NCBI RefSeq assembly: GCF_001447995.1
Contig: NZ_LDPE01000002.1
Location: 904,201-968,200 of the forward strand
Direction of reading: 5' to 3'
DNA length: 64,000 bases
From: Maribacter dokdonensis DSW-8
GTDB lineage: Bacteria; Bacteroidota; Bacteroidia; Flavobacteriales; Flavobacteriaceae
This document shows positions 3,779 to 64,000 of the stretch, in pieces. Within the stretch, counting starts at the first letter, position 1. Every line of letters starts with the position of its first letter. The notes under the pieces were generated by a model. The model worked only from the letters and a program-made list of their open reading frames with translations. It had not been told where the DNA came from and did not search any database. A program made the position numbers and the translations under genes.

Positions 3779-4552
3779 TTAAAAATTCCAGGTATTCAAT
3801 TCCTGAATAACATGGTGTGCTGTTAAATCAAATTGAGTGGGTACTACTGAGATGTAACCATTGGCCAATGCCCATTCATCTGTATCTTCACCTTTGTCCA
3901 AAAGTTCAAACTCTCCCGTTAGCCAATAATAATCTTTACCCATGGGGTTGGTTCGTTTGTCAAATTTTTCTTTCCAATTTGCCTTTGCTTGTCTACATAC
4001 TTTAATGCCTTTTATTTTTTTCTTTTCTAGCTTAGGTATATTGACATTCAAAACCGTTCTTTTAGGAATGCCATTTTCTAAAGCTTGGGTAACGATCGTA
4101 GCAATAAAATCTTGTGCATGGGAAAAATCTGCATCCCAATTATAGTCACAAAGAGAGAAGCCAATAGCGGGAATGCCCTCTATACCAGCTTCAATGGCCG
4201 CACTCATGGTACCGGAATAAATAACGTTGATAGAAGAATTTGCACCATGGTTTATGCCACTGACACAGATGTCGGGTTTTTTGGGCAGTAACTCTTGCAA
4301 TGCCAATTTTACACAATCCGCAGGTGTTCCGCTACAACTATATTCTTCAATATCATCATTGTCCAAGTCTATTTTCATTTTTTTTGAAAATAGGGCGGTG
4401 TCCAAGGTAATAGCATGCCCCATACCAGATTGCGGACTATCCGGTGCAACGACCACGACATCTCCTATTTTTTTCATGATGGAGATCAGCATGCGTAATC
4501 CGGGTGCGGTAATACCATCATCGTTGGTAACTAAAATCAATGGTTTTTCCAT
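3779..4552 (-). CDS. surE: 5'/3'-nucleotidase SurE
   Basis: The product has 257 residues, normal for SurE. The metal-binding start VTNDDGI (Asp11, Asp12) and the conserved YSGTMSAAIEAG and SGINHG stretches are present. SurE proteins are divalent-metal phosphatases acting on nucleoside monophosphates and are linked to stationary-phase survival. The gene heads a minus-strand run surE, small membrane gene, lpxB, NlpC/P60, comEC. The ATG at 4552 is the first in frame and directly precedes the conserved N-terminus. Confidence 0.95.
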   Translation of the reverse strand: MEKPLILVTNDDGITAPGLRMLISIMKKIGDVVVVAPDSPQSGMGHAITLDTALFSKKMKIDLDNDDIEEYSCSGTPADCVKLALQELLPKKPDICVSGINHGANSSINVIYSGTMSAAIEAGIEGIPAIGFSLCDYNWDADFSHAQDFIATIVTQALENGIPKRTVLNVNIPKLEKKKIKGIKVCRQAKANWKEKFDKRTNPMGKDYYWLTGEFELLDKGEDTDEWALANGYISVVPTQFDLTAHHVIQELNTWNF

Positions 4553-61765: not shown

Positions 61766-61842
61766 GTAAACAGTAAACTAAAATCCGTAAGGATTTTTAG
61801 AGGTAAACAAGAACAAGCAATTATTTATAGTCAGTGTTGTGC
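61750..61842 (-). repeat. Imperfect 93-bp palindrome, attC-like, at the 3' end of the orphan gene
   Basis: GCACAA (61750-61755) and TTGTGC (61837-61842) are inverted ends. The centre is a hairpin AAAATCC/GGATTTT (61780-61786 and 61791-61797) with loop GTAA. Its outer end overlaps the orphan gene stop. Size and layout fit an integron-type recombination site read on the minus strand, though the ends deviate from the classical RYYYAAC/GTTRRRY boxes. Confidence 0.45.
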
Positions 61843-62529
61843 GTTCGTTTTTATTTTTCGGTCAATTTCATCCAATTCATCAATCGTATGAAATCCATTA
61901 TCTCCTTTTTTCGTTAATCTTGTTTTTATTTTTCCAGCAGACCAAAATATAAAATCCAATTTTTTCATTTCGGACAACTTATTGTCTGTAAAAATTTCGT
62001 CAAAAAGTCCAATTGTTTCTGGTATCAAATTTTGTTTAATTATTTGCTCGTAACCATTTTGAATTTTTTCAAGTTGGTCTAAATATTTATCTAATTTAAT
62101 TTCAAATTCCGATTGATATGGTCTTGTCATAGAAAACATTTTCGCAACTTCGCTGTCGTAAATAGGCATTATGTCGTCAATTGTGTTAAACATCTTCGTT
62201 GCGAATGAAAATTGCAAAGTGTTTTGTCCTTTTCTGTTCGGAAATGAGTAAAGTCTGCGTAATACTTTTTCATAGTCAAACTGTTTTTCATTCCGATTTT
62301 CTTCTAAAATCTCGAAATATTCTTTTTTAAATTCAGGTGTTAATCCAGCGTTGTCAATTCTGTAAAAACTCCTGAAAACAAATTGGAATAAATAATTTTC
62401 ATTGACATTTGATTCTTTAAACTCCTTTTTTAGAAAGTTGTAAACATCAACGCTTTCTTGGTCAATGTTCTTAATGATTTCCGTTGAATGTTTTTCAATC
62501 CATTCGGATATTTCCGTTATTTTATTCAT
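61831..62529 (-). CDS. Orphan accessory protein, unknown, in cassette-like setting
   Basis: The 232-residue protein is rich in Lys, Glu, Ile, Phe and Asn and predicted mostly helical. It has no signal peptide, no membrane helix and no catalytic motif I recognise. Recognisable phrases such as LRRLYSFPNRKGQNTLQFSF and WSAGKIKTRL suggest a conserved but uncharacterised family; the start ATG at 62529 is clear. The gene is flanked by GTTGTGCGT (61836-61844) and ACGCACAAC (62575-62583), and its stop lies within the palindrome. This is how single-gene cassettes are organised. Function unknown. Confidence 0.65.
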   Translation of the reverse strand: MNKITEISEWIEKHSTEIIKNIDQESVDVYNFLKKEFKESNVNENYLFQFVFRSFYRIDNAGLTPEFKKEYFEILEENRNEKQFDYEKVLRRLYSFPNRKGQNTLQFSFATKMFNTIDDIMPIYDSEVAKMFSMTRPYQSEFEIKLDKYLDQLEKIQNGYEQIIKQNLIPETIGLFDEIFTDNKLSEMKKLDFIFWSAGKIKTRLTKKGDNGFHTIDELDEIDRKIKTNAQH

Positions 62530-62574
62530 TTAATTTTTTATCAATTTCCAATTTCAGAATATTGCTGTTAAATG

Positions 62575-62700
62575 ACGCACAACGGTCTTGTATATGAAAA
62601 GTAGCGGATTTTCACGCACTAACTTTTCGGATTATTACTGACCTTTATTTTATTATTTATCTTTTGTTTAAGCACCAAAATCGCTATTTTTTATATACGT
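62575..62700 (-). repeat. Second attC-like imperfect palindrome, interrupted by the IS110 element
   Basis: The outer left arm ACGCACAAC (62575-62583) is followed by GTATATGAAAAGTAGCGGATTT (about 62595-62616), which is inverted and slightly changed at 62681-62699 (AAAATCGCTATTTTTTATATAC, read in reverse). The expected right end GTTGTGC is missing after 62700. The remaining arm would continue beyond the element at about 63996. Confidence 0.5.
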
Positions 62701-62745
62701 CTTAAGTTTGATTCTCAGTAAATTGTTGATATAACTAGAAAGAAC

Positions 62746-62887
62746 AAAAGAGAGAATTAAGGTTACTATATACGGTGAAGCTTTAGACTTCGACAACATT
62801 GATAATCCTCTCTCTTTTACTACTTAGATCACGTTCAGTTCTGTGAGACCTTAGATCTCGTTTTCAAGTTGTTGTGAGCAGAAGTAG
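62746..62887 (+). ncRNA. Candidate bridge RNA of the IS110 element
   Basis: Two successive modules can be folded. First: stem 62746-62759/62803-62818, apical hairpin GAAG/CTTC (62777-62780/62788-62791) with loop CTTTAGA. Second: stem CTACTT/AAGTAG (62820-62825/62882-62887) plus TCAC/GTGA (62829-62832/62874-62877), hairpin GAGA/TCTC (62845-62848/62856-62859) with loop CCTTAGA. The internal loops hold 8-nt words that match the left flank (TATATACG) and the right end (TCAGTTCT). This is the known design of bridge RNAs with target- and donor-binding loops; the folding was done by eye. Confidence 0.6.
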
Positions 62888-62912
62888 CCGGTTCTTTCGT
62901 AAAACATATCTT

Positions 62913-63881
62913 ATGAATAAATATAAAGAAACTTTTGGAGTCGACATCAGTAAAGATGTCTTTGATGTACATGGTAGTAACAAAGGTCACGACCAGTATA
63001 AGAACGATGAAACTGGATTTAAGAAATTCCTTAAGGAACTGCCCAAATGTTCATTGGTCGTTATGGAAGCTACCGGTTATTATCATTATAGACTTGCCCA
63101 GTTTCTTTACAAAAATGGGGTAATAGTTTCAGTAGTAAACCCATTATCCGTAAAACGTTTCATTCAAATGAAACTGGCTAAAGTAAAAACGGATAAGAGC
63201 GATGCCAAGGCTATATGTGAATATGCACTGGTCAACGAGGTACCTATTTACAATGCCTTGACGGATATCCAGAGCGAATGCTTACAGTTGTTCCGGTTAT
63301 TGGATATCTATTTAAAACAACGTACCGCGACCAAGAACAAGATACACGGAGAAGCTGTTCTGGGCATACCTTCAAAGTTTGTTTATCGTTCCTTGATACG
63401 TAATAAGAAACTGCTCAATAAAGAGGTAGCCGCTATCGAATCAAAGATTCTGTCATTGGTAAAAGAGGACCAACAGGAGCAATTGACTTTATTGATGTCA
63501 ATACCCGGTATAGGTCAAAAGACTGCATTGTTCCTAATAGTGGTCACCGATGGGTTCAATAAGTTCGAAAATGCGGCACAGCTTTGTAGCTATGTAGGTA
63601 TAACCCCAACGATACGGGAATCGGGGAGCAGTGTGAGAGGTCGTGCGCGAATAAGTAAGGTCGGCAATAGAAAACTTCGCAACCTATTATTTCTATGTTC
63701 TTTTAACGCTTGTAAGCACAATAGGGCATGCAGAGAGGTTTATGAGCGGATCGTGAACAGGGGAAAGAGCAAGAAACTGGCACTGATAGCCGTTGCCAAC
63801 AAACTTTTAAAGCAGTCTTTTGCCATTGCAAAATCTGGCAGGCCATATGATGAAACTTACGTTTCAATATTGCCTAGATAA
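62913..63881 (+). CDS. IS110-family transposase (RNA-guided recombinase type)
   Basis: The ATG at 62913 gives 322 residues; a GTG at 62874 would run through the candidate RNA and is rejected. The N-terminal RuvC-like DEDD domain has Asp11 (GVDISKD), Glu52 (MEATG), Asp94 and Asp97 (TDKSDAKA). The C-terminal Transposase_20 domain has IPGIGQKTALFL and RESGSSVRGRARISKVGNRK, which carries the serine nucleophile region. IS110 enzymes excise and insert the element through a circular form, guided by a bridge RNA in characterised members. The gene is intact. Confidence 0.95.
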   Translation: MNKYKETFGVDISKDVFDVHGSNKGHDQYKNDETGFKKFLKELPKCSLVVMEATGYYHYRLAQFLYKNGVIVSVVNPLSVKRFIQMKLAKVKTDKSDAKAICEYALVNEVPIYNALTDIQSECLQLFRLLDIYLKQRTATKNKIHGEAVLGIPSKFVYRSLIRNKKLLNKEVAAIESKILSLVKEDQQEQLTLLMSIPGIGQKTALFLIVVTDGFNKFENAAQLCSYVGITPTIRESGSSVRGRARISKVGNRKLRNLLFLCSFNACKHNRACREVYERIVNRGKSKKLALIAVANKLLKQSFAIAKSGRPYDETYVSILPR

Positions 63882-63906
63882 ATAGAAGCTAGATCGAATA
63901 AAAAAA

Positions 63907-63938
63907 GCTCAAAGAATCAAGTTATTGAATCTATGAGC
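63907..63938. other. Interrupted hairpin in the right end of the IS110 element
   Basis: GCTCA (63907-63911) pairs with TGAGC (63934-63938), and inner AGA/TCT and TCAA/TTGA pairs close a GTTA loop. There is no T-run on the plus strand. It may stop or process the transposase mRNA or shape the element end. Confidence 0.4.
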
Positions 63939-64000
63939 CTGAAATAATATTGTCTCGGATTAAAGAAGAATTTGTTTGTTTTTTATCTCAGTTCTTTGTT

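Follow-up and report, generated by a model that had tools for sequence, protein, structure and literature searches.

The described systems closest to the locus analysed here include the IS110 elements IS621 and ISEc21. In the excerpts of the IS621 reports used here (PMC11208160, PMC11208158), the left end of IS621 encodes an RNA with two internal loops, pairing is with the bottom strand for the left guides and with the top strand for the right guides, a promoter arises across the joined ends and REP repeats serve as targets. The core of IS621 consists of positions 8-9, the top-strand cut falls between 9 and 10, and sharing of the core by target and donor is reported for IS621 and related orthologues (excerpts of PMC11208158). 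For ISEc21, the part of PMC11187229 used here describes a seekRNA of the IS110 type from an upstream non-coding region, insertion without duplication, a bottom-strand match that lies 5' of the top-strand match, a promoter across the joint as in IS621, a natural re-direction in its relative ISMch6 and a linear target inside IS3-family genes. Excerpts of that source describe IS1111-group elements with subterminal inverted repeats and an RNA that is usually located downstream, among them ISKpn4, an RNA-guided DEDD element in cassette recombination sites.

We analysed a window of 64,000 nucleotides from Maribacter dokdonensis DSW-8 which carries an IS110 element at its right edge (Table 1). As a whole, the comparisons are best explained by a left end that very probably encodes a bridge RNA guiding the recombinase to its target and to the element's own joint. 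The predicted RNA resembles that of IS621 in its location, its two internal loops and the strands its guides would pair with, and the element resembles IS621 in having its junction at the position of the top-strand cut, a promoter motif across the joined ends and repeats as targets. With ISEc21 it shares the upstream non-coding region, the absence of a duplication, the order of the two matches and natural re-direction, and with ISKpn4 the use of cassette sites. Unlike IS621 as described in those excerpts, target and donor do not share a CT core (the donor has TT, the target NN), the right guides of both loops have UU next to them, which would not pair with the core of the donor, the junction promoter motif is of the Bacteroidota type, and the targets are attC-like cassette sites, not REP. 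The cassette target and several re-directions set it apart from ISEc21 as described there, and the upstream RNA from the IS1111 group.

Table 1. Features of the element, its predicted bridge RNA and the neighbouring cassette, in window positions.
Feature	Positions	Strand	Remarks
Integron-like cassette beside the element	61836..62583	-	start box GTTGTGCGT.. at 62571-62583, complement at 61836-61848
Left half of target	62692..62700	+	TATATACG plus position 9 (T)
IS110 element	62701..63996	+	CTTAAG (left end) to CAGTTCTT (right end)
-7-like half of junction promoter motif	62703..62710	+	TAAGTTTG
Predicted bridge RNA region	62738..62898	+	covariance model, 160 positions, 190.3 bits
Outer stem, 5' strand	62738..62745	+	pairs with 62891-62898; helix 1, 96.0% of cells paired
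Target-loop basal stem	62746..62755	+	pairs with 62809-62818; helix 2
Left target guide TATATACG	62767..62774	+	matches left flank 62692-62699
Target-loop hairpin	62776..62792	+	GAAG/CTTC plus U-G; helix 4, both sides changed in 3/5 pairs
Right target guide CAACA	62794..62798	+	loop-1 3' strand; complement of TGTTG, positions 10-14
Donor loop	62829..62877	+	closed by 62829-62833 with 62873-62877; helix 6
Left donor guide TCAGTTCT	62835..62842	+	matches right end 63988-63995
Donor-loop hairpin	62844..62860	+	UGAGA/UCUCG; helix 7, both sides changed in 3/5 pairs
Right donor guide TTTTCAAG	62861..62868	+	its AAG would pair with CTT 62701-62703
Outer stem, 3' strand	62891..62898	+	pairs with 62738-62745
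IS110 recombinase, 322 aa	62913..63881	+	Pfam PF01548, PF02371; NF033542
-33-like half of junction promoter motif, TTG	63972..63978	+	completed by TAAGTTTG when the ends abut
Right half of target	63997..64000	+	first bases TGTT, then contig end
Target sequences			TATATACGNTGTTG, TATATACGGTGTTG

The boundaries of the element follow from comparison with other copies and with unoccupied sites. Four contigs of the same genome begin exactly at position 62701, and joined flanks aligned to unoccupied sites without gain or loss of a base. The window stops four bases past the element, at a contig end, so that the right flank of this copy beyond TGTT is out of sight; it can be read at seven other right junctions of the genome, which holds 14 more whole or partial matches to the element, with contigs breaking there. 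All eight left junctions of the genome finish in TATAYAC or TTTATAC followed by two further bases; all seven right junctions fit (TGTTG four times, TGTTA three times). Joined flanks and unoccupied repeats together read TATAYAC-NN/TGTTR (the slash marks the junction). TGTT is in place in 129 of 138 junction-spanning alignments, which link 42 of the 70 copies queried to 28 distinct unoccupied junctions; one alignment that lacks TGTT involves an occupied site. The counts of 24, 66 and 28 empty sites or junctions given here and below derive from different search patterns. A scan of left ends for any dinucleotide before TAAGT gave CT 54 times, CC twice and AT once, with 16 left ends unscored and two CG hits that are flank artefacts.

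Abutted ends, CTCAGTTCTT directly followed by CTTAAG, occur in tandem in one genome (G157), where a pattern search of 299 family genomes found its only two sites. These are not circles: both are tandem insertions, with an internally deleted derivative of 54 bp as the second unit, and they confirm the ends of the element. The derivatives, left end fused to right end, lie around base 1500 on the minus strand of L216 and L217, in tandem with a full right end. In another genome (G001, L063 at 3885-3960), an exact doubling of 75 bp of the left end follows the element's own guide TATATACGG. A self-targeted second insertion (plus deletion) was considered for this doubling, and slippage between the 9-bp TATATACGG copies in flank and guide fits equally; the doubling was left out of the evidence, and the second left end that it contains was removed from the core count.

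The recombinase exceeds the cut-offs of PF01548 (DEDD_Tnp_IS110), PF02371 (Transposase_20) and NF033542, and among PDB sequences only IS621 (8wt6) and ISCro4 (9t56) matched it at E 1e-3. The latter is a sequence relative at E 4.1e-30, compared by this match alone. E52, D94, D97 and S237 line up with IS621 catalytic residues (8wt6, E 4.9e-31; residue names as in the excerpts of PMC11208158), and D11 was placed by eye, indicating a DEDD RuvC-like plus Tnp recombinase with a catalytic serine, as in IS110 elements. The non-coding stretch upstream of the gene (212 bp) is longer than that downstream (115 bp), the reverse of the IS1111-group arrangement.

The first-pass annotation had proposed, at 62746..62887, two modules with the apical loops CTTTAGA and CCTTAGA. 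Both hairpins, GAAG-CTTTAGA-CTTC and GAGA-CCTTAGA-TCTC, are present at the positions given, each follows an eight-base loop word and GT, and the reappearance of the two words (TATATACG in the left flank, TCAGTTCT in the right end) was confirmed by reading. The modules and their coordinates thus stood; the RNA is somewhat longer than proposed, with an 8-bp outer stem that encloses both. Covariation, which had been named as a check, was assessed in an alignment of 73 distinct left ends (A1), its structure being written from the window's own fold together with the alignment; rows with insertions in the RNA (L037, L086, L098, L099, L142) and a duplicate (L077) had been left out. In A1, 96.9% of the cells are paired and both sides have changed in 17 of 42 pairs, with at least one such pair in each of the seven helices. 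The innermost pair of helix 2 varies between AU, GC and CG, and two pairs of helix 6 show both-side changes in 25 and 21 sequences. Cells with both sides changed numbered 133, compared with 29.0 in shuffles (0/500 as high) and 9-22 with slid partners. RNAalifold alone returned 25 pairs, 11 of them with compensatory changes. Folded as a single sequence, the window copy is as stable as its shuffles (z 0.04), and stability by itself would have missed the RNA. A covariance model built from A1 (R1) gave the window copy 190.3 bits and the next match in the window 17.9, and scored above 90 bits at 28 of a set of 29 loci, eight of which contain an A1 row letter for letter; the one missed (L207) begins at a contig edge. 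None of nine other IS110/IS1111-type loci matched R1 at E up to 1, and no Rfam family matches the RNA region. These results point to a structured non-coding RNA with two internal loops in the left, upstream end, as in IS110 elements. Four copies (L086, L098, L099 and L189) carry short inverted repeats such as TCCCGATAGCTATCGGGA in the predicted RNA, just past the start of the right target guide.

The left target guide comprises the eight bases of the loop-1 5' strand that precede a two-base linker and the hairpin. The proposal that this word varies with the left flank was borne out: over 110 rows (105 by script and five by hand, seven false left ends having been removed) the guide matched positions 1-8 of its own flank at 7.03 of 8 bases, compared with 6.07 for permuted flanks. 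With one pair for each of 17 guide types the values were 7.12 and 4.84, and for 49 distinct guide-flank pairs 6.57 and 5.21 (0/20000 permutations in all three comparisons; the permutations ignore relatedness). Several guides have been re-targeted. ATTAACCG in L187 matches its own flank 8/8, as do TTTAGGTT (L041, L056, L079) in L041 and TATAGCCG (L132, L141) in L132; GTTAAGCA in L157 matches 7/8, and GTCTACCG is found in L211. Out of eight positions, these five guide types, all distant from TATAYACG, agree with their own flanks at 6-8 and with the common TATATACG at 1-6. In the TATAYAC group itself, flanks do not strictly follow the T/C difference between the guides TATATACG and TATACACG; L191 has the guide TATATACG and sits at TATAGTCA, and L094, L124 and L150 match their sites poorly on the left.

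Both left-hand guides had been recognized in the first-pass annotation; the right target and right donor guides had been missed. Among 87 right flanks of at least five bases, 53 read TGTTG, 27 TGTTA (one mismatch to the guide) and seven otherwise. In L157 the right target guide is AAACA and the right flank TGTTT, so that covariation of loop 1 with the target is seen for the left guide across guide types and for the right guide in this one element type.

In loop 2, the left donor guide repeats the eight bases of the right end exactly in 87 of 91 rows (as TCAGTTCT in 86), in keeping with the earlier suggestion that this word stays fixed to the element end, and guide and end have changed alike in L187 (TTAGTTCT) and L131 (TCAGATCT). 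Mismatches occur in L196 (guide TTAGTTCT, end TCAGTTCT), in L188, L189 and L201 (guide ACAGTTC., end ACAGTACT) and in L041/L056 (guide TCAGTTCA, end TCAGTTCT). The usual right donor guide pairs at four of the five positions 10-14, with a mismatch at 13, and the forms in ..TTAAG pair at all five. In L041/L056, the one element type in which covariation of this guide is seen, it ends in TAGG and the left end reads CCTAAG, both having changed together.

The location of the structured left end 5' of the recombinase gene and its conserved fold would also suit an RNA regulator, for instance of recombinase translation, with protein-DNA contacts choosing the target and the loop words matching by chance or descent; RNA-guided activity is here a prediction from sequence. 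We consider this extremely improbable. Five divergent guide types match their own flanks far better than they match TATATACG, the altered right guide of L157 is mirrored in its right flank, and two donor-guide changes are mirrored in the ends of L187 and L131. A recombinase that reads a folded, single-stranded attC-like hairpin, the RNA match then reflecting attC-like sites common to the clade, is also very unlikely. The targets are indeed cassette sites with arm-like halves, always entered at the same half, and the IS1111-type element ISKpn4 has been described at an attC fold, and ISPa11 at a REP (part of PMC11187229). Against this, the guide types go to distinct sub-classes of sites, which they match base by base, and, as in IS621, the left half-site and the right half-site each have a guide of their own that matches them. 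A bridge RNA with separate target and donor loops, as originally proposed, is supported by both the covariation and the guide-flank match.

The crossing point could be placed from both ends. Left ends retain the target through position 9 and right ends retain the donor TT at positions 8-9; of 126 right ends that the pattern search gave, 118 read TTCTTTGT, and one of the eight others is not a right end (the pattern overlooks variant ends such as that of L108). The junction between positions 9 and 10 coincides with the top-strand cut of IS621, indicating the same geometry. It also accounts for a peculiarity remarked upon at the outset, that the target match ends one base before CT: the guide pairs with positions 1-8 and the extra base is position 9. 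CT occupies positions 10-11 on the donor side and is thus not a shared core. In 69 copies, the donor core TT is joined to target GT (24), GG (18), AT (11), AA (5), TT (3) or others (8); neither base is common to both in 27 copies and both are in three, and the CT dinucleotide that target and donor share in bridge-RNA systems of the IS110 type is absent. Cores TG and CT at positions 10-11 had been considered and were dropped in light of the IS621 cut position. Conversion of target position 9 to the donor T at insertion was likewise too weak to claim: 69 of the 105 filled sites have T there, as do 31 of the 66 empty ones (p 0.017, uncorrected for relatedness).

The relaxed core, as distinct from the bridge RNA, could be an artefact of how the junctions were placed, with a shared core lying in another register. 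Most targets have C at position 7, like the donor, and position 9 is donor-like T at the filled and empty frequencies just given. We regard this as unlikely, since left junctions hold target bases through position 9, the donor TT stands at 8-9 in nearly all pattern-found right ends, the tandem copies read CTCAGTTCTT directly followed by CTTAAG, and the left-end scan gave mostly CT. On sequence grounds we therefore classify the element as a putative IS110 bridge-RNA system with a relaxed core, in which unlike cores would be tolerated by the mechanism rather than repaired from a rare like-core event. It is quite possible, although we would stop short of calling it probable, that this Flavobacteriaceae clade has abandoned the shared core altogether, that RNA pairing alone sets the crossing point and that the guides have diversified to sub-classes of cassette sites in a family of integron-like arrays that has had little recognition, making the element a guided parasite of integrons. 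Target and donor would then need no common base at the junction. A shared core restricts the sequences that bridge recombinases can address, and holding CT constant could, according to the excerpt of PMC11208160, limit the addressable sequence space; a natural clade that joins unlike cores and includes several natural re-targetings would be a ready test set for whether a core is needed.

In the mechanism that we propose, the element would excise as a circle with abutted ends, and the joined ends would act as a flavobacterial promoter of the sigma A type from which RNA and recombinase are transcribed. Bound by the recombinase, the RNA would pair through loop 1 with the target bottom strand at positions 1-8 (TATATACG) and with the top strand TGTTG at positions 10-14 (CAACA), and through loop 2 with the right end (TCAGTTCT) and the left end CTT (..CAAG). 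The recombinase would then cross both DNAs between positions 9 and 10, leaving no net change in the target, as judged from flanks and unoccupied sites. Transcription, RNA binding, the circle and the order of strand exchange are steps that we infer.

For the junction promoter, we take the TTG box and its spacing to TAnnTTTG to be parts of flavobacterial promoters. When the ends were abutted in silico, 46 of 73 elements had TTG 17-23 bases ahead of TAnnTTTG, compared with 4 of 108 integrated left ends; a first count had given 46 of 74 joints and 4 of 109 integrated ends, with the motif in 1.5% of mononucleotide shuffles. Loosening the last bases of the motif weakened the contrast (70 of 73 joints and 21 of 108 integrated ends). 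Sigma-70 scans gave two sites, compared with 5.2 expected. According to the part of PMC9723704 used here, TAnnTTTG is the -7 box of flavobacterial sigma A. A promoter across the abutted ends, as in IS110 elements, is thus present as a motif.

The unoccupied targets are repeats of about 140 bp, each after a single gene and in tandem on one strand. Complementary ends of one cassette are a sign of integron cassettes, and the match of start and end box within a cassette was taken as such. The ends in question are long and specific to the cassette. In 28 cassettes, start and end box of one cassette agree at 6.32 of 7 positions (range 3-7), compared with 2.64 when both boxes are taken from one site and 2.52 after permutation (0/5000). 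In 24 sites, the complement between the two arms of one site is, with few exceptions, at random level. For the cassette beside the element, the start box was found by script and the end box by eye. Judged by eye, 24 of the 28 cassettes show a break in the box complementarity at one and the same place, with A in the start and G in the end. Tandem one-strand cassettes with complementary ends are characteristic of integrons, and judged by these features the targets are attC-like sites of integron-like cassette arrays. The guide would consequently place the element between cassettes, where insertion is presumably harmless.

In a single-contig genome (G001, L218), a run of one-strand cassettes begins next to a tyrosine recombinase of 375 aa. 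The eight regions compared were chosen for having such a recombinase; in six (L218, L219, L222-L225) it is 58-100% identical to that of L169 and reads towards same-strand sites, and L220 and L221 have a weaker relative (44% and 41%) that likewise does so. In the genome of the window (L222), an IS110 copy lies in the first cassette site after the recombinase. The recombinase of about 375 aa passes the cut-off of NF040815. With the IntI-type model TIGR02249 it reached 218.8 and 208.3 bits (cut-off 265), and none of 36 genomes exceeded that cut-off. Bacteroidota are among the phyla with integrons (PMC9668308), and the part of the IntegronFinder 2.0 report used here names Salinibacter ruber as the only new complete integron in Bacteroidetes (PMC9024848). 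The targets also point to integron-like arrays in this group. Literature searches of titles and abstracts found no paper on these flavobacterial cassette arrays or on an IS110-type element at flavobacterial cassette sites.

IS110/IS1111-like elements of 351 aa, each with a long non-coding region downstream, are also present in the genome of the window (L183, L185 and L186). Their left flanks, and in L186 also the right flank, resemble the same attC-like sites. Two RNA-guided groups may therefore use the same attC-like targets. IS1111-group elements at integron attC sites were reportedly described by Post and Hall in 2009. A second IS110 subfamily (L177, L178 and L181; 357 aa where whole) has the right end ACAGTACCTA, and in L177 and L178 the right-end word is also found in the upstream region (GGACAGTACCTAGGTCC).
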